Positions 40,500-52,736 of a DNA stretch of 64,000 bases are shown piece after piece; the first letter of the stretch is position 1; each line of letters starts with the position of its first letter. Source of the DNA: Candidatus Brocadiaceae bacterium (GTDB lineage: Bacteria > Planctomycetota > Brocadiia > SM23-32); contig JAAYEJ010000069.1 of NCBI GenBank assembly GCA_012728835.1, positions 1 to 64,000 on the forward strand, in the 5' to 3' direction. The position numbers and the translations under genes were made by a program. The notes under the pieces are model-generated. The model saw only the letters and a program-made list of their open reading frames with translations. It was not told where the DNA came from and searched no databases.

Positions 40500-42908
40500 A
40501 TGTCACGAAGCGACGATCACCCGGACCTTGCCGCACTCGAGCCGGCCGCTCAGGGCCAGGAGGCGATCGACCTGCGGATCGTCGACGAGATCGTGCGGCG
40601 TCATGGAGGGGAGCCGGGGGCGGCCATACCGATCCTCCAGGACATCCAGTCGCGGTACCGGTACCTGCCGGAGGCGGCCCTGAGACGCGTCTGCGCACTG
40701 ACCGAGATCAGCCCCGTGCAGATCCAGGGCATCTCGACCTTCTACGCGCAGTTCCGGCACATGCCGATGGGCAGGCACCTGATCAGCGTCTGCCACGGTA
40801 CCGCCTGCCACGTGGCCGGTGCGCAGCGGATATCCGACGCGCTGGCCCGGCACCTGGGCCTGTCCGACGGGGCGGACACCGACGCGCGGCGGCTCTTCAC
40901 GCTGCAGAAGGTCGCCTGCCTGGGCTGCTGCTCGCTGGCGCCGGTCATGAGCGTCGACGGCGAGATCTACGGCCATCTGACGGCCGGGACCGTCGCGGCG
41001 GCTCTGGACGGGTTCCTGCGCTCGCGCGCAGATGCCGGACGCCGGAGGCGGAGGCCGGCCCTTGCGGCGGCCGACCGGCCGGCGCCCGAGTTCCGCGTCA
41101 GCCTCGTGTCCTGTTGTGTGGCCAACGGCACGCTGGCGGTCAGGGAGGCCCTGGAGCGCGAGCTGGCGCACCTGGGGCGTCCCGTGCGGCTGCGGTGCTC
41201 GGGTTGTGTGGGGCTCTGCGACATCGTGCCGCTGGTGGACTACATCGCGCCGGACGGCATTCTGACGCGCTACACGAACGTCGATCCGGCCTCGGTGCGG
41301 GGCATCGTGCGCCGGCACGTCGCCCCGCGGGGGCTCCTGCGGCGCGTGGAGAGCGGCTACCGGCACGTCGTCCGTGCCCTGTGGGACGGTTCGGCCTGGG
41401 ACCGCCCGGAGGACCATCGCGAGGCACTCCGCGCCGACGAGATCGTCGCGTTCACGGCCAAGCAGACGCAGATCGTGATGGAGGGGACCGACCGGCTGGA
41501 CCCGCTGGACATCGACGAGTACATCGCCCGGGGGGGGTTCCGGGCCCTGGAGCATTGCCTGGCGCACCGGACGCGCGGGGAGGTGATCGACGGGATCGAC
41601 CGGGCCGGCCTGCGCGGGCGGGGGGGCGGCGGCTTCCCCACGGGCCGGAAGTGGCGGACCGTGGCCGAGCAGCCGGGGCCCGTCCGCTACGTGGTGATGA
41701 ACGGCGACGAGGGCGACCCCGGCGCCTTTATGGACCGCACGCTCCTGGAGGCCGTGCCCTACCGCGTGCTGGAGGGCATCGCGATCGCGGCCTATGCGGT
41801 CGGGGCCGAGGAGGGCTACCTCTACGTCCGCAACGAGTATCCGCGGGCCACCGAGAGCATCCGGCTGGCCATTGAGAACGCCTGCGAGCGCGGTTACCTC
41901 GGCGACCGGATGCCGGGGGGGCAGTTTCGGCTGCGCCTGCACGTGCGCGAAGGGGCCGGCGCGTTCGTCTGCGGCGAGGAGACGGGCCTTCTGGCATCCC
42001 TGGAGGGGCGGCGGGGCACTCCGCGCTGCCGCCCGCCGTACCCGTCCGAACAGGGCCTCTGGGGGCGGCCGACGTGCATCAACAACGTGGAGACGTACGC
42101 GAACGTGCCCTGGATCATGCTCCACGGCCCGGAGGAGTTCCGCAGGATCGGCACCGAACGGAGCCGGGGCACCAAGGTTTTCGCCCTGGCCGGGGCGGTC
42201 CGGCGCGGGGGGCTGATCGAGGTGCCGATGGGCATCACGATCGACGAGATCGTCCGGGAGATCGGCGGGGGAGTGCCGGAGGGCCACGAGTTCAAGGCCG
42301 TGCAGGTGGGCGGGCCGTCCGGAGGATGTCTGCCGGCCGCCATGGGCGATACGCCCGTGGACTACGAAGAGCTTACGGACAAGGGCGCGATGATGGGCTC
42401 GGGCGGCATCGTTGTGCTGGACGAGACGGCCTGCATGGTGGACGTTGCCCGGTTCTTCCTTCGGTTCACGCAGAGCGAGTCCTGCGGCAAGTGCACGTTC
42501 TGCCGTGTGGGCACGCGCCGGATGCTGGAGATACTGGACCGGCTCTGCGAGGGCCGGGGGGCAGCCTCCGACCTGGACGAGCTGGAGGCCCTGGGTCGGC
42601 AGGTGGCGGCCGCGAGCCTGTGCGGCCTCGGGCAGACCGCGCCGAATCCGGTCCTGACCACCCTCCGGTACTTCCGCTCCGAGTACGAGGCGCACGTCGA
42701 AGGCCGCTGCCCTGCGCACAAGTGTCCGGACCTGATCCGCTTCGAGATCGGCGACCGGTGCATCGGATGCACCCTCTGCGCGCAGAACTGCCCGGCGGAG
42801 GCCATCCCCATCCGACCCTACGAGCGGCATGAGATCGACCAGGAGAAATGCGTGCGCTGCGGCAGCTGCCGGCGCATCTGTCCTGCCGACGCCGTCGGCG
42901 TGGAATGA
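40500..42908 (+). CDS. NuoE-NuoF-like fusion, NAD(P)H-oxidising flavin/FeS subunit (HydBC type)
   Basis: 802 aa. Residues 1-170: NuoE-like thioredoxin-fold 2Fe-2S domain (C-H-G-T-A-C and C-L-G-C-C). About 190-290: a second thioredoxin-like domain (S-C-C-V-A-N-G, C-S-G-C-V-G-L-C) as in HydB. About 330-690: NuoF core with G-R-G-G-G-G-F-P-T-G (NADH site), N-G-D-E-G-D-P-G-A-F (FMN site) and S-C-G-K-C-T-F-C plus a distal Cys for 4Fe-4S. C-terminus: two ferredoxin motifs (C-I-G-C-T-L-C-A-Q-N-C-P, C-V-R-C-G-S-C-R-R-I-C-P). NuoE and NuoF are usually separate proteins. Expected to exchange electrons between NAD(P)H and FeS partners. Confidence 0.93.
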   Translation: MSRSDDHPDLAALEPAAQGQEAIDLRIVDEIVRRHGGEPGAAIPILQDIQSRYRYLPEAALRRVCALTEISPVQIQGISTFYAQFRHMPMGRHLISVCHGTACHVAGAQRISDALARHLGLSDGADTDARRLFTLQKVACLGCCSLAPVMSVDGEIYGHLTAGTVAAALDGFLRSRADAGRRRRRPALAAADRPAPEFRVSLVSCCVANGTLAVREALERELAHLGRPVRLRCSGCVGLCDIVPLVDYIAPDGILTRYTNVDPASVRGIVRRHVAPRGLLRRVESGYRHVVRALWDGSAWDRPEDHREALRADEIVAFTAKQTQIVMEGTDRLDPLDIDEYIARGGFRALEHCLAHRTRGEVIDGIDRAGLRGRGGGGFPTGRKWRTVAEQPGPVRYVVMNGDEGDPGAFMDRTLLEAVPYRVLEGIAIAAYAVGAEEGYLYVRNEYPRATESIRLAIENACERGYLGDRMPGGQFRLRLHVREGAGAFVCGEETGLLASLEGRRGTPRCRPPYPSEQGLWGRPTCINNVETYANVPWIMLHGPEEFRRIGTERSRGTKVFALAGAVRRGGLIEVPMGITIDEIVREIGGGVPEGHEFKAVQVGGPSGGCLPAAMGDTPVDYEELTDKGAMMGSGGIVVLDETACMVDVARFFLRFTQSESCGKCTFCRVGTRRMLEILDRLCEGRGAASDLDELEALGRQVAAASLCGLGQTAPNPVLTTLRYFRSEYEAHVEGRCPAHKCPDLIRFEIGDRCIGCTLCAQNCPAEAIPIRPYERHEIDQEKCVRCGSCRRICPADAVGVE

Positions 42909-42912
42909 ACCG

Positions 42913-44580
42913 ATGAGCATAGAACTGACCATCAACGGCCGCCGGGTGGCCGTCGCGCCGGGCGCCACGATCCTCGAGGCCGCCCGCCGCCTTGGCGTAG
43001 ACATACCGACCATCTGCCATCGGGACGGGCTGCCGCCGTGGACGTCCTGTTCCCTGTGCGTGGTGCGGGTGCAGGGCCGTCGGAAGCTCCTGCCTGCTTG
43101 CTCGGCACGGGCGGAGGCGGGGATGGCGGTCACGACCGACTCGCCCGAGATCCGCGCCGCCCGCCGCACGGCGCTGGAGCTGCTGCTGTCCGACCACCGG
43201 GGCGACTGCGTGGCGCCGTGCGCCCTGGCCTGCCCGGCGGGGCTGGACATCCCGGGGTTTATCGCAGAAGTGCGGGCCGGCCGCACGCGCGAGGCGGCCG
43301 CGCTGATCAGGAAGCGCATCCCGCTGCCCGGTGTGCTCGGCCGCGTCTGCGCGCGCTACTGCGAGCGCGTCTGTCGCCGGGGCGAGAGCGATGAGGCGAT
43401 CGCCGTCTGCGCACTGAAGCGCTACGCGGCCGACGCCGACCGGCAGGCCGCCGAGCCCTTCCGTCCGCAGTGCGCGTCGCCGTCGGGAAGGAGCGTCGGC
43501 ATCATCGGCGCGGGCCCGGCCGGGCTCTCGGCCGCCTACTACCTGCTGGAGGCGGGGCACGCCTGCACCGTTTACGAGGCCGACGCCGCCGCCGGCGGCA
43601 TGCTGCGGCGCATCCCGTCGTTCCGCCTGCCGAGGGCGGTGGTCAATGCCGAGGTGGACGTGATCCTGCGGATGGGGTGCGACCTGCGCCTGCGAACGGC
43701 CGTCGGACGCGACGTGCCGATGGACGTGCTCCGCCGCGAGCACGACGCCGTCTTCGTGGCGGCGGGTGCCTCGGACCGTCCCGCTCCGGGGATTCCGGGG
43801 GCGAACCTGTGCGTGCCGGCGGACGCGGACCTGCTGCGGACGCTCGGCCTGGACGCGTCCGCCCGGGGCGCCGCAGTCGATCGGCAGACGATGGCCACGT
43901 CGGCCGAGGGCGTCTTTGCCGGCGGCGACGTGGTGAGCGGGCCGGGCTCGGTGGTGCGTGCGGTTGCGGCCGGCCGCCGGGCGGCCGTCTCGATCGGTCA
44001 GTACCTCAGCGGGGCGGAGGTGACGGGCGAGCCTGCGGCGTTCCACGTGCGCATGGGCGGGCTCTCGGAGGCCGACCGGGCGCAGATCCTCGGGTCGGTC
44101 GTTCCCCGGGCGCGCGTGCCGGAGCGCCGTGAGCCGGCCGGGCCGTCGGCGCAGGGCCTGTCCGAGGTCGTGCAGGGCCTCAGCGACGCCGAGGCCCGGC
44201 AGGAGGCCGCGCGCTGCCTGCAGTGCGACTGCCTGGCTCGGGACGACTGCAGGCTGCGGCGCTACGCGCAGGAGTACGGCGCCGACGCCGGGCGTTTCCG
44301 CACGCTGCCGCGGCCGGTCGTGCGCGAGGAGTCCGCCGGCGGGGTCGTCTTCGAGCCGGCCAAGTGCATACTGTGCGGGCTGTGCGTGCGGATCGCCGAG
44401 GCGCACGGCGAGCCGCTCGGCATCGGCTTCCGCCGGCGGGGCCACGACACGCACGTGGACGTGCCGTTCGGGGCCACGCTTTCGGACGGGCTCGCGGCGA
44501 CGATCCGAGCATGCGCGGATGCCTGTCCGACGGGCGCGATCAAGATCCGTGCGTGCACGCCGGAACAGGGCCCTGCCTGA
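42913..44580 (+). CDS. NuoG-type 2Fe-2S domain fused to GltD/NfnB-like flavoprotein lacking the NAD(P)H domain
   Basis: 555 aa. Residues 1-80 are a 2Fe-2S ferredoxin domain (C-H-R-D, S-C-S-L-C), then a NuoG-type D-H-R-G-D-C-V-A-P-C and a GltD-like FeS helical domain (C-A-R-Y-C-E-R-V-C-R-R-G). The FAD site is G-I-I-G-A-G-P-A-G-L-S (about 196-206) and the C-terminal FAD motif G-V-F-A-G-G-D is at about 334. Only about 40 residues separate G-I-P-G-A-N from that motif, where GltD/NfnB relatives carry a pyridine-nucleotide-binding domain of over 100 residues. The C-terminus has one further Cys cluster (C-I-L-C-G-L-C). It lies 4 bp after the NuoEF-like gene and is probably its partner subunit. Confidence 0.88.
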   Translation: MSIELTINGRRVAVAPGATILEAARRLGVDIPTICHRDGLPPWTSCSLCVVRVQGRRKLLPACSARAEAGMAVTTDSPEIRAARRTALELLLSDHRGDCVAPCALACPAGLDIPGFIAEVRAGRTREAAALIRKRIPLPGVLGRVCARYCERVCRRGESDEAIAVCALKRYAADADRQAAEPFRPQCASPSGRSVGIIGAGPAGLSAAYYLLEAGHACTVYEADAAAGGMLRRIPSFRLPRAVVNAEVDVILRMGCDLRLRTAVGRDVPMDVLRREHDAVFVAAGASDRPAPGIPGANLCVPADADLLRTLGLDASARGAAVDRQTMATSAEGVFAGGDVVSGPGSVVRAVAAGRRAAVSIGQYLSGAEVTGEPAAFHVRMGGLSEADRAQILGSVVPRARVPERREPAGPSAQGLSEVVQGLSDAEARQEAARCLQCDCLARDDCRLRRYAQEYGADAGRFRTLPRPVVREESAGGVVFEPAKCILCGLCVRIAEAHGEPLGIGFRRRGHDTHVDVPFGATLSDGLAATIRACADACPTGAIKIRACTPEQGPA

Positions 44581-44599: not shown

Positions 44600-44635
44600 G
44601 CCCGCCGGAGTCTGTGATCACCCGGGAGGTGCGGC

Positions 44636-45022
44636 ATGGCGAAGCGAGTCCTCCTCGTCGACGACGACGCGGACCTGCTGGCCGCCTTGCGGGTGGTGCT
44701 CGAGGCGGAGGGATACGAGGTCGCGACCGCGACGAACGGGGCCGAAGGCTGGCAGGCCGCCCGCGAGTCGCCGCCGGACCTGGCCGTCGTCGACGCGATG
44801 ATCGACACGTTCAGCGAGGGCGTTCACCTGGCCTGCCGCCTCCGTTCGGACGCCGACCTGAAGGCCATGCCCATCATCATGGTCACGGCCGTCAACGACG
44901 AACTCCCGTACCGGCTCGACGGACGGGGGGGCCCGGGCGGCCCGTGTGCCGACCGCTTCATGGAGAGGCCGGTCGATCCGTCCGAGCTGCTCTCGGCGAT
45001 GGCGGAGCTGCTCCGGTCCTGA
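44636..45022 (+). CDS. Stand-alone response-regulator receiver protein
   Basis: 128 aa, a single receiver domain. Acidic pocket V-D-D-D-A-D, phospho-acceptor Asp in L-A-V-V-D-A-M-I-D, and conserved Thr in I-M-V-T-A. The usual K-P motif is R-P here (M-E-R-P-V-D-P), so the conserved Lys is replaced by Arg. The T-F-S-E-G-V-H-L-A-C-R-L-R segment resembles receiver proteins encoded with electron-bifurcating hydrogenase or NuoEF-like clusters. No output domain, so it probably acts by protein-protein contact. GGGAGG precedes the ATG. Last gene of the long operon. Confidence 0.88.
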   Translation: MAKRVLLVDDDADLLAALRVVLEAEGYEVATATNGAEGWQAARESPPDLAVVDAMIDTFSEGVHLACRLRSDADLKAMPIIMVTAVNDELPYRLDGRGGPGGPCADRFMERPVDPSELLSAMAELLRS

Positions 45023-45087
45023 GGCAACCCGGGCCGGACGCGCCCCGGGCACCCTGCGCGCGGCTTTCGCCGCGCTTGCGGCACGGC

Positions 45088-45093
45088 TACAAT
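45088..45093 (+). promoter_or_regulatory. Candidate -10 element for the AMP-binding/NagA fusion gene
   Basis: TACAAT, 58 nt before the start at 45152; the -35 region (TTTCGC, 45065-45070) is poor. Confidence 0.3.
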
Positions 45094-45151
45094 GGAGTGT
45101 TCGCTCTGCGGACGGTGCGTCGTCCGGGCCTCTCGCAAGGACAGCACGACC

Positions 45152-48043
45152 ATGGATGAACGCCTGAAGACACTGGCCGACCTGCCGGCGCTCGGGGCCG
45201 AAGCGTTCGGCGACCAGCCGGCCTACCGGCCGTCGGGGCGCCTGGCGCCGCCCGTCACCTATCGGCAGGTCTACGACTCCGCGCGGGGCATCGCCGCATT
45301 CCTGCGGGAACACGGCGTCCGGCCCGGCGACAGCGTCGGCATCTACGCCCCGAACATGCACGAGTGGGCCGTGGCGTTCTGGGGCATCGTCCTGGCCGGC
45401 GGCGTCGTCGTGCCGGTCGACTACCACAACGGCCCGGCCGAGATCGCCCATGTCTTCGCCGAGACGGGCGCCCGGTGGGCCTTCACCACGCGCCGTCTGG
45501 TCGCGAACCTGGCCCGCCTCGGCCTCGAGGGCACGATCATCCTGGATGCGGGCGAGGCGGACGGCGGCCTGCGGTTCCGCGACGTGCAGGCGCACCGCCC
45601 CGGCGATGAACCGGTGTGCGCGCCCGAGCCGACCGAGCCGGCCGTCATCATCTCCACGTCCGGAACGGGCAACCGGTCCGTGGGCGTCGTGCTGACGCAC
45701 AGGAGCATCCTGGCCGGTCTGCCCTGTGTGCTCAGCGGCCTGGCGATCACCGGCGCCGACCGCTTCCTGTCCGTCATCCACCTGAGCCACACGTTCGAGA
45801 TCACCTGCGGGCTGGTTCTGCCGTTCATGACCGGTGCATCGGTGGCGTACGCGCGGGACATCAAGTACACGACCGTCTTCCGGTGCATGGAGGAGGTGCG
45901 CCCGACCGTCGTCCTGGGTGTGCCGAGCATGTTCAGGATGCTCCTGGAGAACGCCGTTCAGCGCGTCACGGGCGAGCGGGCGCTGTCGCTGGCCGAGCTG
46001 GAGAGCGACAGGGCCGTGCGGGCGGCCCATGCCGAACAGGTACGGCAGTGCTTCGGCGGGAGCGTGCGGCATCTGGTGAGCGGCGGAGCGCCGCTGGCGG
46101 CATCCGTTTCCCTGGCGTACCGGGACGTCGGCATCGGGCTGCTGCAGGTGTACGGCCTGACGGAGACGTCGGGCGTGTGCGCGTTCACGCCTCCCGCCGG
46201 TTGCGCGCCCGGCTCGGTCGGACGGGCGCTGGAGTGCGCGCGCCTCCGCATCGAGTCTCCGGACGCCCGCGGGATCGGCGAGATCTGCGTCGCCGGCGAT
46301 CAACTGATGGCCGGCTACCACAACGACCCGGCCGCCACCGGCGCGGCCGTTCGGGACGGGTGGCTGCACACGGGCGACCTGGGGCGTCTGGACGAGGACG
46401 GCTTCCTCTTCATCACCGGGCGGTCCAAGGATGTCATCATCACCGGGGCCGGCGTCAACGTGTCGCCGGAGGAACTGGAGGAACGGATCATCCGGAGCCC
46501 GTACATCTCCGAGGTCTGCGTTGTGGGCAGGGAGAAGCCGGACCGCACCGAGACGGTCTTTGCGGTCGTGGTGCCGGACCTGGAGCGGGTCGAGGCGCAC
46601 GCGCGGGAGGAGCGGGAGGCGGGCAGGGGAGCCCCGGCCCTTCAGGAACTGATCCGGCGCGAGATCGGCCGATGTACCGCGGGGCTGGCCCGCTTCAAAC
46701 GTGTGCAGGACATGCAGATCCGCACCCACCCCCTGCCGCGGGGCGCCGACGGCCGCTTCGTGCGCGAGGCCGTCAAGCGGGAGTCCTTCTCCATCCTCGG
46801 CCGGATGGGCGTCGTCGCGCAGCCGGCGCCGGACGCACCGCCCCTCGTGCTGACGAACGCCACGGCGATCACGCCGTTCCGCGTTGCGCACAAGTCGTGC
46901 ATCGTCATCGAAGGGGAGAAGATCACGCAGTTCGGCGACTTCGACAGCGTCTACCTGCCGCCGAACGCAGAGGTTGTGGATCTGCAGGGCCAGTACGTCG
47001 TCCCCGGCTTTGTGGACCTGCACGTGCACGGCGGCGGCGGCCACGCGTTCAACACTGCCGACGAGGCCGGCGTGGAGGCGATCCTGGACTACTTCATCTC
47101 CCACGGCACCACCCGCCTTCTGGCCACGATCCAGGCCGACGAGAGGCACCGATTCCTGGGGGCGATCGAGCAGGTCGCGGACTTCTGCCGGCGGGGCGTG
47201 CGGCACGGCGTGCTGCACGGGATTCACGTGGAGGGGCCGTTCGTCAACAAGGACATGGCCGGCGCCCTGAACCCCGACTACCTGTGGGACGCCACGATCG
47301 ACAACCAGCTCCGGCTCCAGGAGGCGGGACGCGGGCACATCAAGATGATGACGATGGCCCCCGAGGTGCCCGGCGCGCACGACGTCATGCAGGTCGCATC
47401 CCAGGCAGGGATCGTGCTGGCTGTGGCGCATTCCCGGGCGAGCTATGAGGACGTGAACGGCGCCATCGATCTGGGGCTCTCGCAGGTGACGCATATCTTC
47501 AACGCGATGCCGCCCATCCACCACAGGACTCCCGGCGTGCTGACGGCCGCGTTCCTGCGCCGGGAACTGAAGGTCCACCTCATCGCCGACGGCATCCACG
47601 TCCATCCGGCCATCGTCACGCTCCTCCACCGGCTCAAGGGCGAGAGCGGCATCATCCTCATCTCCGATGCCGTCACCCCCAGCGGGTGCGAGGACGGAAC
47701 GTACGAGTTCTCGGACCAGGAGGTGACCGTGCGGCGGGGGCGCGCCTACCTGCGCGACGGCACGCTGGCCGGCAGCACCGTCACGCTCGACCGCTCCGTC
47801 AAGTTCCTCGTCGAGAACACCGACATTCCCATCCAGGAGGCCGTGCGGATGGCCACCCTGAATCCTGCGCGCGCCCTGGCGCTGGACCGGCAGAAGGGCG
47901 TCATCGCCGTCGGGCGCGATGCCGACCTGGTGGTGCTTGACAAGGGACTGGAGGTCGACACGGTGTTGATCGGCGGGCGGGCCGTCTACCGGCGGCCGGA
48001 GGGGACCGCGCTGCGGCCGCCCGGCATGCCCGCCGGGTCCTGA
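45152..48043 (+). CDS. Fusion: AMP-binding (acyl-CoA synthetase-like) enzyme plus N-acetylglucosamine-6-phosphate deacetylase-like domain
   Basis: 963 aa in one uninterrupted frame; ATG 45152 has AAGGA 10 nt upstream. Residues 1-560: ANL-superfamily adenylation domain with Y-G-L-T-E-T-S-G, H-T-G-D-L-G and G-R-S-K-D-V-I-I-T. The P-loop reads T-S-G-T-G-N-R-S-V (not T-S-G-T-T-G-x-P-K) and the C-terminal catalytic Lys position reads G-A-D-G-R, so adenylation may be impaired. Residues about 566-963: NagA amidohydrolase with D-L-H-V-H-G, H-V-E-G-P-F, V-A-H-S-R-A, T-H-I-F-N-A-M and I-S-D-A-V, all metal and catalytic positions present. No such fusion is familiar to me. The deacetylase half is probably active in amino-sugar metabolism. 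Confidence 0.9.
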   Translation: MDERLKTLADLPALGAEAFGDQPAYRPSGRLAPPVTYRQVYDSARGIAAFLREHGVRPGDSVGIYAPNMHEWAVAFWGIVLAGGVVVPVDYHNGPAEIAHVFAETGARWAFTTRRLVANLARLGLEGTIILDAGEADGGLRFRDVQAHRPGDEPVCAPEPTEPAVIISTSGTGNRSVGVVLTHRSILAGLPCVLSGLAITGADRFLSVIHLSHTFEITCGLVLPFMTGASVAYARDIKYTTVFRCMEEVRPTVVLGVPSMFRMLLENAVQRVTGERALSLAELESDRAVRAAHAEQVRQCFGGSVRHLVSGGAPLAASVSLAYRDVGIGLLQVYGLTETSGVCAFTPPAGCAPGSVGRALECARLRIESPDARGIGEICVAGDQLMAGYHNDPAATGAAVRDGWLHTGDLGRLDEDGFLFITGRSKDVIITGAGVNVSPEELEERIIRSPYISEVCVVGREKPDRTETVFAVVVPDLERVEAHAREEREAGRGAPALQELIRREIGRCTAGLARFKRVQDMQIRTHPLPRGADGRFVREAVKRESFSILGRMGVVAQPAPDAPPLVLTNATAITPFRVAHKSCIVIEGEKITQFGDFDSVYLPPNAEVVDLQGQYVVPGFVDLHVHGGGGHAFNTADEAGVEAILDYFISHGTTRLLATIQADERHRFLGAIEQVADFCRRGVRHGVLHGIHVEGPFVNKDMAGALNPDYLWDATIDNQLRLQEAGRGHIKMMTMAPEVPGAHDVMQVASQAGIVLAVAHSRASYEDVNGAIDLGLSQVTHIFNAMPPIHHRTPGVLTAAFLRRELKVHLIADGIHVHPAIVTLLHRLKGESGIILISDAVTPSGCEDGTYEFSDQEVTVRRGRAYLRDGTLAGSTVTLDRSVKFLVENTDIPIQEAVRMATLNPARALALDRQKGVIAVGRDADLVVLDKGLEVDTVLIGGRAVYRRPEGTALRPPGMPAGS

Positions 48044-48050
48044 GGAGTCG

Positions 48051-48737
48051 ATGCCCATGACTCGGCTTCGGGAGCGGCTGCGCCCGCTCGGCGCATGGCT
48101 GGTGCCGGCCCTTCTGGTCGGTGTGACGGTTGCGTGCGCACTCCCGAAGGCGGACGGCGGGGCCGTGCACGGCCTCGACGGTGCCGTGCTGACCGCGCTG
48201 CGACAGCCGGGCGACCCGCGGGCACCCGTCGGGCCCGCGTGGCTGACGGGCATGGTCCGCGACGTCACGGCGCTCGGCTCCACCGGAGTGCTGGTGTTCG
48301 TGACGGCCGCCGCCCTGGGCATCCTGCTGCTGGTCGACGAACGGCGGGGCGCCTGGCTGCTGGCGGCGTCGGTCGGCGGGGGGTTTCTCCTGAGCTATCT
48401 GCTGAAGGCGTGGATCGGCCGCGCACGGCCCGAGATGGCCGCGCCCGGAGTCGTCGCGTTCGGGGCCAGCTTCCCCAGCGGGCACAGCACGATGTCGACC
48501 GTCGTGTACGCCACGATCGCGCTGCTGCCGGCGCGTGCGCACGTCCGACGCGCCCTCCGGCTCTACCTGATCTCGATCGCCGTCGTTCTGGCCGCCCTCG
48601 TGGGGGCCAGCCGCGTGTACCTGGGGGTACACTGGCTGTCCGACGTTCTGGGCGGATGGTGCGTGGGGGCCGCCTGGGTGCTGCTCTGCCGCCGCGTCGG
48701 CCGGGCGGCAGAACGGCCGGCGCCGCCTTCCGGCTGA
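48051..48737 (+). CDS. PAP2-family membrane phosphatase
   Basis: 228 aa with about five to six membrane helices. The three phosphatase motifs are complete: K-A-W-I-G-R-A-R-P, S-F-P-S-G-H-S, and S-R-V-Y-L-G-V-H-W-L-S-D. Relatives dephosphorylate lipid phosphates such as undecaprenyl pyrophosphate or phosphatidic acid on the outer face of the membrane. Starts 7 bp after the fusion gene behind GAGGAG, so co-transcribed. It ends 13 bp from the convergent peptidase gene. Confidence 0.93.
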   Translation: MPMTRLRERLRPLGAWLVPALLVGVTVACALPKADGGAVHGLDGAVLTALRQPGDPRAPVGPAWLTGMVRDVTALGSTGVLVFVTAAALGILLLVDERRGAWLLAASVGGGFLLSYLLKAWIGRARPEMAAPGVVAFGASFPSGHSTMSTVVYATIALLPARAHVRRALRLYLISIAVVLAALVGASRVYLGVHWLSDVLGGWCVGAAWVLLCRRVGRAAERPAPPSG

Positions 48738-48750
48738 CGGCGTGCAGCCC

Positions 48751-49836
48751 CTATCGGCTCAACGCGAACTCGAGCATGCTGCAATAGAGCGCGAGCTGGA
48801 CCTCCAGGATCTCCTCCAGTCCCAGCAGGCGCACGCGGTCCGTGCGGACGCCGTGCGGGCACTCGAACGTGAACGGCACGCCTCCGCAGACGTGGTAGAG
48901 CATGCCGGTCAGGTTGAGCGAGGCCGGGAACTCGCCTCCTTCGGGCCGAGGCTCCGGCGCGCCGCCCGACGGGATGCCGAGCGGCTCCAGGCGGGCCTGG
49001 AAGACCCGGTAGAGCGCCCTGACGTGTTCCTGCACCGCCAGGGGGGTGTAGGCGGGCCGGCCGAAGTGCGGGGCGTGGCCGCTGCTGTGCAGGACGGCGG
49101 TCAGGTCCGGCCCCTCGCGGCGCGCCACGTCGAGGATGGCCGGCGCGGAGGCGCTCATCGCCCGCGTGAACTCGTCGTGCATCGGGTTCACGCCCGCGTC
49201 GTCGTAGTAGCATCCCAGGAAGCTCACCTGGTCGGCGCGCATCGGGTGCACGCGCTTGCACTGGGGCCAGCCGCACAGCCGGCCGTCGCTCCAGGTGCCC
49301 TGCCCCCAGAAGCGGATGTCGTCGCCCTCGAGGCCCTGCAGCGTGCCGGGCTCGAAGCGGGCCAGACCGTCCGGATTGCCCGTGGGCAGGATCAGAAGGC
49401 GGCACCGTTCGGCCAGGGCCCTCAACTCGTCCTGGGGGCGGCCGCGCAGGTCGGCGCCCGTCTCCATGACGTGCATCAGGTTCACCAGGCCGGTCAGACC
49501 CTCCACCTCGTGTCCGTGCACCGGGCCGACGAAGAAGACGACCGGCTTCGTGCGCGAGGCCCGGTCCATGTAGGCCGACGGCTCGCGGGCCGCCACGGCG
49601 GAGTTGAAGTTGGCCTTTCCGCCGGCGGACTCCCGCTCGCCGTAGGCGACCAGCCGGATGGGGCGGCCGCCCGGCGAGGTCCCCATGGTGCTCACCTCGC
49701 CCGCCTGCACGGCCGCAAGGTGTTCGTCCAGCCGGGCCAGACCGCCGCACCAGAATCCGGGCAGCGTGCGCTCGGGGATGCGGCTCCGGGCTTCCTCCAG
49801 GGTCATCAGCCGCCACGGTCGCGTCTCTTCGGCCAT
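48751..49836 (-). CDS. M14-type zinc carboxypeptidase-like protein
   Basis: 361 aa, no signal peptide. Zn site H-G-H-E-V-E-G (HxxE, near residues 108-114), and P-T-G-N-P-D-G-L-A-R carrying the substrate-binding N-P-D-G motif of M14 peptidases; V-L-H-S-S-G-H contains a His that could be the third ligand. Cytoplasmic M14 proteins of this type are often amidases or dipeptide hydrolases, with unknown substrates. Last gene of a three-gene minus-strand operon with the M19 dipeptidase (24 bp upstream) and an MBL hydrolase. Confidence 0.85.
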   Translation of the reverse strand: MAEETRPWRLMTLEEARSRIPERTLPGFWCGGLARLDEHLAAVQAGEVSTMGTSPGGRPIRLVAYGERESAGGKANFNSAVAAREPSAYMDRASRTKPVVFFVGPVHGHEVEGLTGLVNLMHVMETGADLRGRPQDELRALAERCRLLILPTGNPDGLARFEPGTLQGLEGDDIRFWGQGTWSDGRLCGWPQCKRVHPMRADQVSFLGCYYDDAGVNPMHDEFTRAMSASAPAILDVARREGPDLTAVLHSSGHAPHFGRPAYTPLAVQEHVRALYRVFQARLEPLGIPSGGAPEPRPEGGEFPASLNLTGMLYHVCGGVPFTFECPHGVRTDRVRLLGLEEILEVQLALYCSMLEFALSR

Positions 49837-49860
49837 CGTGGATTCCCTTCCGTGGTCCGT

Positions 49861-50853
49861 CTACGCCGGGAGCATGCGCAGGAAGTTGTCGTGCGCGATC
49901 TTCACCAGCACTCTGCGGGGGATTCCCCGCCGGTCGAGCGCCTCCCAGAGGTCGCCCATGCGCGAGGGCTCGGGGACGGCCATCACCGCGCCCTCCGGCA
50001 CGCCGTCGAAGTCCGTGCCGATGCCGACTCCGTCCTCGCCCATCAGATCCAGCGCGTGGAGCACGTGCTCGACGTAGTCATCGAGGGTCGGGTCGTCCTG
50101 ACTGACGAACGGTCCATAGAAGCAGAGGCCAACGACGCCGCCCTTCCCGGCCAGCGCGGTCATCATCTCATCGGTCATGTTCCGCGTGTGGGGGCAGAGG
50201 GCGGCGCAGTTCCCGTGCGTATAGCAGACCGGGCCGGTCGCGCATTCCAGCGTCTCCCAGAACGTCACCTCGTTGGCGTGCGCCAGGTCGCAGGCCAGGC
50301 CGAGCCGGCCCATCTCCGCCAGCGACGTGCGCGCGAAGTCCGTCAGGCCCTTCTGCTCCCTGCGCAGAGCGGCCCGCTCGGCAGGGGAGAGATAGCCGAA
50401 GTGGCTGCGGCTGACCTGGAGCGCGTGGGGCGTATCCTCCGTGCCCTCGTTGTGCGTCAGGCTGCAGACGCGCACGCCGAGCCGGTGCCAGTTGCGCAGT
50501 TGCTCGATCTGCTCCGCGAACATCGACTGGCCCTCGATCGTCATGACGATCGCCGCCCGGCCGGCTTCGACGGCCGTCCGCACGTCGGCCGCCGTCGTGC
50601 AGAGCGCCAGCTCGTCGGGATGGGCGGCCGCGATCCGGTAGACCCCGTCGATCATGCGCAGGCTGGCCAGGAGATCCTGTTCACCGACCATGGCGAACAG
50701 GCCGCGCAGGTTGCCCGCGCGCAGGCGCGCCGTGTTCACGTGGCAGCCGTCCTCGGCCACGCAGAGGTCGAGCGAGAGCCCCCGCGAGGACCGCCGTTCG
50801 ATGCTGTCGCAGTGGGCGTCCAGCGTCCACAGTTCGTCCGGGACATCCGCCAT
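49861..50853 (-). CDS. Membrane dipeptidase-like (M19/renal dipeptidase family) amidohydrolase
   Basis: 330 aa, soluble despite the family name. L-D-A-H-C-D-S gives the first metal ligands (HxD), T-I-E-G-Q the bridging Glu, C-Y-T-H-G-N a later His, and G-I-G-T-D-F-D-G the catalytic Asp region. Family members hydrolyse dipeptides, including mixed L,D forms. GGAGGAG lies just upstream of ATG 50853. 15 bp downstream of the MBL hydrolase gene and 24 bp before the M14 gene, suggesting joint peptide or amide catabolism. Confidence 0.92.
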   Translation of the reverse strand: MADVPDELWTLDAHCDSIERRSSRGLSLDLCVAEDGCHVNTARLRAGNLRGLFAMVGEQDLLASLRMIDGVYRIAAAHPDELALCTTAADVRTAVEAGRAAIVMTIEGQSMFAEQIEQLRNWHRLGVRVCSLTHNEGTEDTPHALQVSRSHFGYLSPAERAALRREQKGLTDFARTSLAEMGRLGLACDLAHANEVTFWETLECATGPVCYTHGNCAALCPHTRNMTDEMMTALAGKGGVVGLCFYGPFVSQDDPTLDDYVEHVLHALDLMGEDGVGIGTDFDGVPEGAVMAVPEPSRMGDLWEALDRRGIPRRVLVKIAHDNFLRMLPA

Positions 50854-50868
50854 TGCGTATCTCCTCCG

Positions 50869-51624
50869 TCAGGAAGCGTTCCTCGCGCGCTGCCGGGCCT
50901 GGAACTCCCGGGCCGACTGTGCGCAGAGATCGGCGGCCTTGTAGTGGTCAACCATCTGGAAGATGCCTTCCCCGAGCGATTCGGACATCCTCTCCCAGTA
51001 GTCCTCCACGTCGCCGCCGCAGAGCGAGTGGCCGCCGCAGACGAGGCCCGCCCCGAGCCTGCGGACCTTCTCCACCGACGCGACCATCTGTTCGTAATCC
51101 GAACCCCGCGCGGGGAAGAACCAGCCCGTCATGTCGCCCGTGAAGAGCACGCGCTGCCCCGAGATCTCGAGGAGGAACGAACTGCTGTCCGGCGTGTGGC
51201 CGGGCGTGTGATACGCCTCAAGGCGGACCCCGGCGGCTTCCAGGACGTCGCCTTCGCGGAAGAACCGATCCGCAGGCACGGTGGCGCGGCCCCAGTAATC
51301 CGCCTTCCTGTTCGTCTCGTGGATGGCCGCCGTCGCCCCGTGCTGCTGGAAGAACTCGCAGCTCTCGGCATGATCGCCGTGGCCGTGCGTGTAGGCCACG
51401 AGCCTGATGTCGGCCGGCGTCACCCCCAGCGGCTCCATCAGCGCCACGACGGCATCCGTGTAGCGCCGGAAGCCCGAGTCCACGAGGACGCATTCGCCGC
51501 CCCGGCCGCGAATCAGGTACACGCAGGCGCCCGAGTAATCGGGAATCGGCCGGGGATCGCACGGATAGCCCGTGACCAGGTAGAGGCCATCGACCAGTTC
51601 CATGACGCCTTCGGGGACCTGCAT
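50869..51624 (-). CDS. Metallo-beta-lactamase-fold hydrolase, first gene of the peptidase operon
   Basis: 251 aa. Zn-binding motif T-H-G-H-G-D-H (near 80-86), T-P-G-H-T-P-D as the third His motif, F-T-G-D-M-T with the bridging Asp, and C-G-G-H-S for the last His. Cytoplasmic. Substrate not predictable. GGGAGG sits 6 nt before ATG 51624. Not close in sequence to the MBL-fold protein at 8.7-9.5 kb, so not a recent duplicate. Confidence 0.88.
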   Translation of the reverse strand: MQVPEGVMELVDGLYLVTGYPCDPRPIPDYSGACVYLIRGRGGECVLVDSGFRRYTDAVVALMEPLGVTPADIRLVAYTHGHGDHAESCEFFQQHGATAAIHETNRKADYWGRATVPADRFFREGDVLEAAGVRLEAYHTPGHTPDSSSFLLEISGQRVLFTGDMTGWFFPARGSDYEQMVASVEKVRRLGAGLVCGGHSLCGGDVEDYWERMSESLGEGIFQMVDHYKAADLCAQSAREFQARQRARNAS

Positions 51625-51662
51625 TGCCTACCTCCCATCCTCCGGCCTGATATGGAGCGACG

Positions 51663-51691
51663 CATGAGGCTCGCACGGGACGCCCCTCATG
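51663..51691. repeat. Inverted repeat upstream of the MBL hydrolase gene
   Basis: CATGAGG (51663-51669) and CCTCATG (51685-51691) are perfect arms around a 15-nt centre, 39-67 nt upstream of the start at 51624. It could be an operator or a terminator stem; no T tract. A minus-strand TTGACA overlaps it at 51695-51690. Confidence 0.35.
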
Positions 51692-51729
51692 TCAAGGCCA
51701 GGTGCGTTCGGACGCGTTCCCCGAGCCAC

Positions 51730-51966
51730 TCACGGCCAATCGGCCGGGATCGTGTAGAGGTGGGCGGATCGGCCAAGCCGGGTGAGGAGGAGGTGCGTCC
51801 CGTCCGGCGAGAGGGGGGACGTTGCCGGCGTCAATCCAGTCGGCCACGCGCCCCCGCCTTCTGCGGCGTTCGGCAGACGGATGGCAGCGCCCAGTTCCTC
51901 CTGCCGAATGAGATGCCCTCCGGCCACAGCCATCTCCTCGTGCCTCCCGTCGGGCGTTCCGAAGCG
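51730..51966 (-). pseudogene. 3' remnant of a propeller-type (TolB/oligogalacturonate lyase-like) gene
   Basis: An open stretch of about 78 codons, ending at 51730, encodes F-G-T-P-D-G-R-H-E-E, A-I-R-L-P-N-A-A and S-P-L-S-P-D-G-T-H-L-L-L-T, followed by H-L-Y-T-I-P. The S-P-D-G-T-H-L-L-L pattern is the classic blade motif of WD40-like/TolB propellers near their C-terminus. There is no start codon or ribosome binding site, and the intact ChbG-like gene ends 6 bp away. It looks like the surviving tail of a deleted gene. Confidence 0.45.
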
Positions 51967-51971
51967 CGACG

Positions 51972-52736
51972 TCAGTCCGGGAAGTCCGCGCAGGATATCA
52001 ACTCCACGCCGTTCTCTTCGCACAGCTCCCGCAGGCCGGGAGCGCACACCGCCTCGGTGTCCGTCAGGCGGTAGGGTTCGGCCCAGGGGGATGCCGTCGA
52101 GGACACGGAGCGCAGCTCGGGGCTGCTCTCGGCCAGGTGACAGCAGACGAAGTGGACGCCTTCGCCCAGGTTCTGGATGTGGCGGCGCAGCCACTCCGTC
52201 TTGTCCATCTTCTGTGCGCGGGCATCGTTGGTCAGAGAGGTCCTGGTCGTGAACGGGAAGGCGCAGTCCTCGTAAGCTGGTCCCATGTTGCTGCGGCATC
52301 GCACGCCGTAGCGCCGGATCAGGCGGGCCGTGACTTCGAGGTCGACTGGACGCATGTGCATGTCGACGTGGCATGGTTCGATCCCGCGCGCGCGCACCAG
52401 CTCGATCTGCGCGACGTACTCCGCCTCGAGTTCGGCGGGATCGGCCTTCTGCTCGACTTCCTCGACGCTGCGGGGAAACGTGCCGTCGTCCTTGACGAGG
52501 GACGGCGCGTGCGTGAGGGGGCGCCAGCGGTAGTTGTCCCACTCGCACGTGACCGTCAGGTGAACGCCGACCGGCAGGCCATTCTGCCGGGCCATCGCCA
52601 TCGCCTCCTCGGCCCAGGGGCAGGGCACCATGAGCGACGCCTGCGTCAGGATGCCCTCGCGGAACCCGCGCAGGATGCCCTCATTGGCGGAGTGGCACAT
52701 GCCGAAATCGTCGCTGTTGATCACAAGCCTCTTCAC
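51972..52736 (-). CDS. ChbG/YdjC-family carbohydrate deacetylase
   Basis: 254 aa. The start is GTG 52736 with CGGGAGG 6 nt upstream. N-terminal metal-site motif N-S-D-D-F-G-M-C-H-S-A-N, then G-V-H-L-T-V and H-V-D-M-H-M, as in chitooligosaccharide deacetylase ChbG and HpnK. These enzymes remove an N-acetyl group from oligosaccharides or glycolipids. With a NagA-like domain 4 kb away, amino-sugar turnover is plausible; HpnK-like action on a hopanoid is another possibility given the cyclase in the window. Confidence 0.88.
   Translation of the reverse strand: MKRLVINSDDFGMCHSANEGILRGFREGILTQASLMVPCPWAEEAMAMARQNGLPVGVHLTVTCEWDNYRWRPLTHAPSLVKDDGTFPRSVEEVEQKADPAELEAEYVAQIELVRARGIEPCHVDMHMRPVDLEVTARLIRRYGVRCRSNMGPAYEDCAFPFTTRTSLTNDARAQKMDKTEWLRRHIQNLGEGVHFVCCHLAESSPELRSVSSTASPWAEPYRLTDTEAVCAPGLRELCEENGVELISCADFPD

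Follow-up and report, generated by a model that had tools for sequence, protein, structure and literature searches.

A single gene joining an acyl-CoA ligase-like domain with altered adenylation motifs to a NagA deacetylase in a Brocadiaceae bacterium

The closest described systems to the protein reported here are the N-acetylglucosamine-6-phosphate (GlcNAc-6-P) deacetylase NagA (TIGR00221; solved examples 2VHL and 3EGJ) and the class I acyl-CoA ligases of the ANL (AMP-binding) type, such as PRK06187-type proteins, 4-coumarate:CoA ligase and FadD13. In the adenylation step the A10 lysine touches the alpha-phosphate, and it is highly conserved among acyl-CoA ligases; tabulated mutants of the P-loop proline have no activity, and those of the P-loop lysine have fourfold less (review, PMC8388817). 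We analyzed a window of 64,000 nucleotides from Candidatus Brocadiaceae bacterium (GCA_012728835.1, contig JAAYEJ010000069.1, positions 1 to 64,000 of the forward strand), in which one gene encodes domains of both classes. We take the residue numbering of the review's mutant table to be that of 4-chlorobenzoate:CoA ligase. The protein has the whole NagA domain in common with TIGR00221 members, including the HxH metal, EGP, FNAM, DGxH and SDA motifs, but it bears in addition a 545-residue N-terminal ANL domain. With the class I ligases it has in common the fold, the A5, A7 and A8 motifs and both PF00501 and PF13193, whereas it lacks the P-loop P-K and the A10 lysine and is joined to NagA. Among the best-scoring relatives of its ANL half are AMP-binding/ACP/PlsC-acyltransferase proteins of the same phylum (L057, L066, L068 and L072; 30–37% identity), in which the A10 lysine is intact and an ACP and an acyltransferase follow rather than NagA. 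An AMP-binding protein from Kiritimatiellia (L006, JAOZMZ010000028.1) is 36% identical over residues 36–538 of the fused protein but stands alone, with the P-loop and A10 lysines intact. The ANL-NagA protein is a new architecture built from known parts, unusual and a singleton in our searches.

One reading frame with two complete domains

The features discussed below are as follows.
45137..45141, + strand: likely ribosome-binding site of the fused gene, AAGGA, from direct reading
45152..48043, + strand: fused gene, ANL (AMP-binding) domain plus NagA domain; single 963-codon open frame from ATG 45152, stop ending at 48043
45152..46786, + strand: ANL, or acyl-CoA ligase-like, half, residues 1–545 (Pfam, AlphaFold2 model)
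45656..45688, + strand: altered P-loop (A3) TSGTGNRSVGV, with P176S and K177V
46754..46756, + strand: A10 position, Arg535 replacing the catalytic lysine
46787..46837, + strand: linker between the ANL and NagA halves, residues 546–562 (about 20 residues)
46838..48001, + strand: NagA half, residues 563–950; HVHG, HVEGP, AHSRAS, THIFNAMPPIHHR, ADGIHVHP and ISDAV all kept
48051..48737, + strand: PAP2-family membrane phosphatase gene, starting 7 bases 3' of the fused gene's stop

An earlier note on this DNA had described an uninterrupted 963-codon frame that joins two enzyme classes, and the open reading frame and the Pfam and NCBIfam domains agree with it. The frame, the domain matches and the motif departures are far beyond chance. 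The AAGGA lies 10 bases 5' of ATG 45152; a longer alternative frame starts at ATG 45092 (983 aa), ahead of which no Shine-Dalgarno-like sequence was seen. A reverse-strand open frame at 44618–48322 (1234 aa) was rejected as a gene, being the usual mirror of high-GC3 coding.

It is nearly certain that the fusion is real. GC3 is 0.88–0.97 in every full 60-codon bin, alike in both halves and at the junction, and no Shine-Dalgarno-like sequence was seen just upstream of the internal ATG 46807, which together make a hidden frameshift or two genes unlikely. Both domains are also complete, the ligase half running through the A10 region and the NagA half beginning as stand-alone NagAs do. On these three grounds we rejected the two-gene reading and, with it, the frameshift correction that the earlier note had named as a possible refutation. 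Alternative frames read by eye in the P-loop restore no canonical P-K motif, so a compensating pair of frameshifts there was likewise rejected. That an assembly or base-calling artefact fused two adjacent genes would suit a draft genome of 82 contigs and a fusion without a second copy, but it is highly improbable given the flat GC3, the lack of a ribosome site inside the frame, two domains with neither end truncated and a junction far from either end of a 75.5-kb contig.

Motifs of the two halves

In the ANL half, Pfam places PF00501 (AMP-binding) at residues 34–390 (E 3e-70) and PF13193 (AMP-binding_C) at residues 441–487 (E 9e-7). Its NCBIfam matches to acyl-CoA ligases are all below threshold, the best being the long-chain-fatty-acid--CoA ligase PRK06187 with 279 bits against a curated cut-off of 476. 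An AlphaFold2 model of residues 1–551, covering the ANL half only, is a confident ANL fold (pLDDT 88.3, pTM 0.87), to which solved CoA ligases are the closest structures.

We aligned this half with 23 relatives from other genomes and called a column conserved when at least 90% of the relatives agreed. The fused protein keeps 43 of the 50 conserved columns and departs at seven: P176S, K177V, L209I, P210H, G333V, P383D and K535R. The P-loop is altered where T-S-G-T-T-G-x-P-K-G-V is usual, with its TSGT part retained, and the A10 region reads G-R-F-V-R in place of G-K-x-x-R. The position of Val177 is lysine in 22 of the 23 relatives and arginine in the other, and that of Arg535 is lysine in all 23; nearly every relative of the wider alignment set has both lysines. 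The missing P-loop P-K and the G-R for G-K that the earlier note had pointed out are therefore borne out against the relatives. The A5 Glu, A7 Asp and A8 Arg are kept in the alignment (E338, D409 and R424), and these are presumably the residues that hold Mg and ribose.

With both the P-loop P-K pair and the lysine of A10 lost, acyl-adenylate formation at a normal rate is probably impossible, and on these sequence grounds adenylation by the ANL half is likely reduced or lost. Arginine at A10 keeps the positive charge and may therefore retain some activity. One AMP-binding protein from Desulfarculaceae (L015:6547-8127) has arginine at A10 with an intact P-loop and is a possible comparison for the lysine-to-arginine change.

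The NagA half matches PF01979 (Amidohydro_1) at residues 615–945 (E 9e-28) and passes the TIGR00221 nagA equivalog cut-off of 225.65 bits, both in the whole protein (304 bits) and alone (306 bits). Its metal and substrate residues are all present (HxH, E in EGP, H, FNAM..R, DGxH and the catalytic D), and no column that is invariant in a 13-member alignment is changed, in line with the earlier statement that this half retains its key residues. Closest to it is L022, a NagA encoded on its own in another family of the same class (42% identity, tree support 95/92). The only further NagA-like gene of the genome, L002, reaches 219.9 bits, just below the nagA cut-off, and falls in a separate clade, and a nagB gene elsewhere in the genome passes its own cut-off (299 bits). 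With the better nagA score of the two and nagB present, the fused protein may supply most of this genome's GlcNAc-6-P deacetylation.

Distribution and genomic surroundings

The fusion occurs in one copy in its own genome. No second frame with both halves was found in the rest of the class (74 other genomes) or in approximately 390 other genomes sampled from the phylum; the phylum sample came from two largely overlapping draws, with scoring limited to the top two candidates of each genome, a depth at which a true orthologue should still be caught. Nor was a second case found among the 16 loci of a GTDB contig scan or on plasmids at 80% coverage, and our literature search on ANL-NagA fusions or ANL pseudoenzymes returned nothing relevant. 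The impression that the two classes are not known as a fusion thus holds across all of these searches. Relatives do have separate genes, a pattern that the earlier note had named as a refutation, but this makes the fusion derived rather than false.

Relatives of the ANL half are often AMP-binding/ACP/acyltransferase proteins and otherwise separate ligases, and this half has no supported sister in the tree. One such chain (L057:412-4599) carries a fatty-acyl reductase-like domain (NAD_binding_4/Sterile), AMP-binding, ACP and a PlsC acyltransferase, and frames of similar length occur in other genomes of the phylum (L058, L059, L061, L063, L064, L067 and L069). A locus with NagA near AMP-binding genes (L097) was considered but is not a clear precedent, given that its genes lie on opposite strands or kilobases apart. 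That locus holds a 1345-aa frame of MFS transporter, PlsC acyltransferase, ACP and AMP-binding (L097:9777-13814), and its NagA-like gene (L097:5268-6473) has FNAL and DFFH where FNAM and DGIH are usual.

By its spacing, the PAP2 gene is likely in the same operon as the fused gene. It has no match in the nine other genomes of the order, where the fusion is likewise absent. Upstream, a response-regulator gene ends approximately 130 bases away and is preceded by iron-sulphur oxidoreductase genes. These are NADH/ferredoxin-type subunits at 40500–44580 (+ strand) of the window, one of 802 aa that is NuoE/NuoF-like and a Fer2/Fer4/FAD protein of 583 aa, and they resemble a segment of a gene cluster for an electron-bifurcating hydrogenase. 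On the minus strand, 48751–52736 holds M14 carboxypeptidase, M19 dipeptidase, metallo-beta-lactamase-fold and YdjC (chito-oligosaccharide deacetylase family) genes, possibly a cell-wall or amino-sugar salvage group.

Possible roles of the ligase-like half

We tentatively favor a lineage-specific fusion in which a working NagA is joined to an ANL domain that still folds but is impaired in adenylation, and that would now act as a module for binding nucleotides or acyl-nucleotides, for regulation or for scaffolding. The NagA half would, on strong sequence grounds, take acetate off GlcNAc-6-P and supply the NagB encoded elsewhere. The ANL half would descend from an acyl-CoA or acyl-ACP ligase of the 4-coumarate/long-chain type; judging from the model and alignment it appears still folded, with the nucleotide-holding residues kept (Glu338, Asp409, Arg424 and TSGT), and it is probably unable to make acyl-adenylates at a normal rate. 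That it might serve the NagA half as such a module is the weaker step, although it was reasonable for the earlier note to suggest a binding or regulatory role. Against this account, no homologue shares the architecture, so that nothing speaks for selection on either the fusion or its changed positions, and no regulatory ligand is indicated by the results. A more specific version, in which a pseudo-adenylation domain senses adenine nucleotides or acyl-adenylates and exerts allosteric control over the fused NagA and its breakdown of amino sugars, is distinctly unlikely.

The serious rival, though a rather unlikely one, is a neutral accident in which an ancestral ligase gene and nagA were joined, selection acts on NagA only, leaving the ligase half to erode as a passenger. 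The fusion is a singleton in everything searched, its seven departures equal those of the most divergent relative, and its NagA relatives are stand-alone, the nearest, L022, being 42% identical. Erosion sits less well with an ANL fold kept whole together with 43 conserved positions, with 545 codons free of stops and frameshifts, and with several of the lost residues lying in catalytic motifs.

It is unlikely that the ligase still works, with Arg535 and the changed P-loop allowing slow or specialized acyl activation, for example of NagA-released acetate to acetyl-CoA. Acetate recapture is attractive because neither AcsA nor AckA was found above the cut-off in the genome; the nucleotide-contact residues are kept, and a deacetylase fused to acyl activation would channel its product. 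However, the catalytic lysine is missing, an ADP-forming acetyl-CoA synthetase is present and the ANL half is nearest to long-chain/aryl ligases, not Acs. Gly335 occupies what we take to be the position of the acetate-specific Trp in Acs, and a Gly there would presumably favor larger acids, which counts against acetate.

Quite improbable is a lipid or glycolipid pathway in which the NagA-like half would act as deacylase on a lipid precursor carrying an amino sugar, with an acyl chain bound by the ligase-like half and the product taken up by the adjacent PAP2 phosphatase. This reading gains from the PAP2 gene, which starts 7 bases beyond the fused gene and is just as absent from the order's other genomes, and from the joining of several of the phylum's ligase relatives to ACP and PlsC-type acyltransferases, but the NagA half exceeds the GlcNAc-6-P equivalog cut-off with its usual motifs, the fused protein carries no ACP or acyltransferase domain and operon membership is read from spacing only.

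If the ANL half is a passenger, this is ordinary domain joining. If it is a binding domain, an acyl-CoA-ligase fold would have gained a new role in regulating a catabolic deacetylase, and the case would caution against annotating this domain as a ligase.
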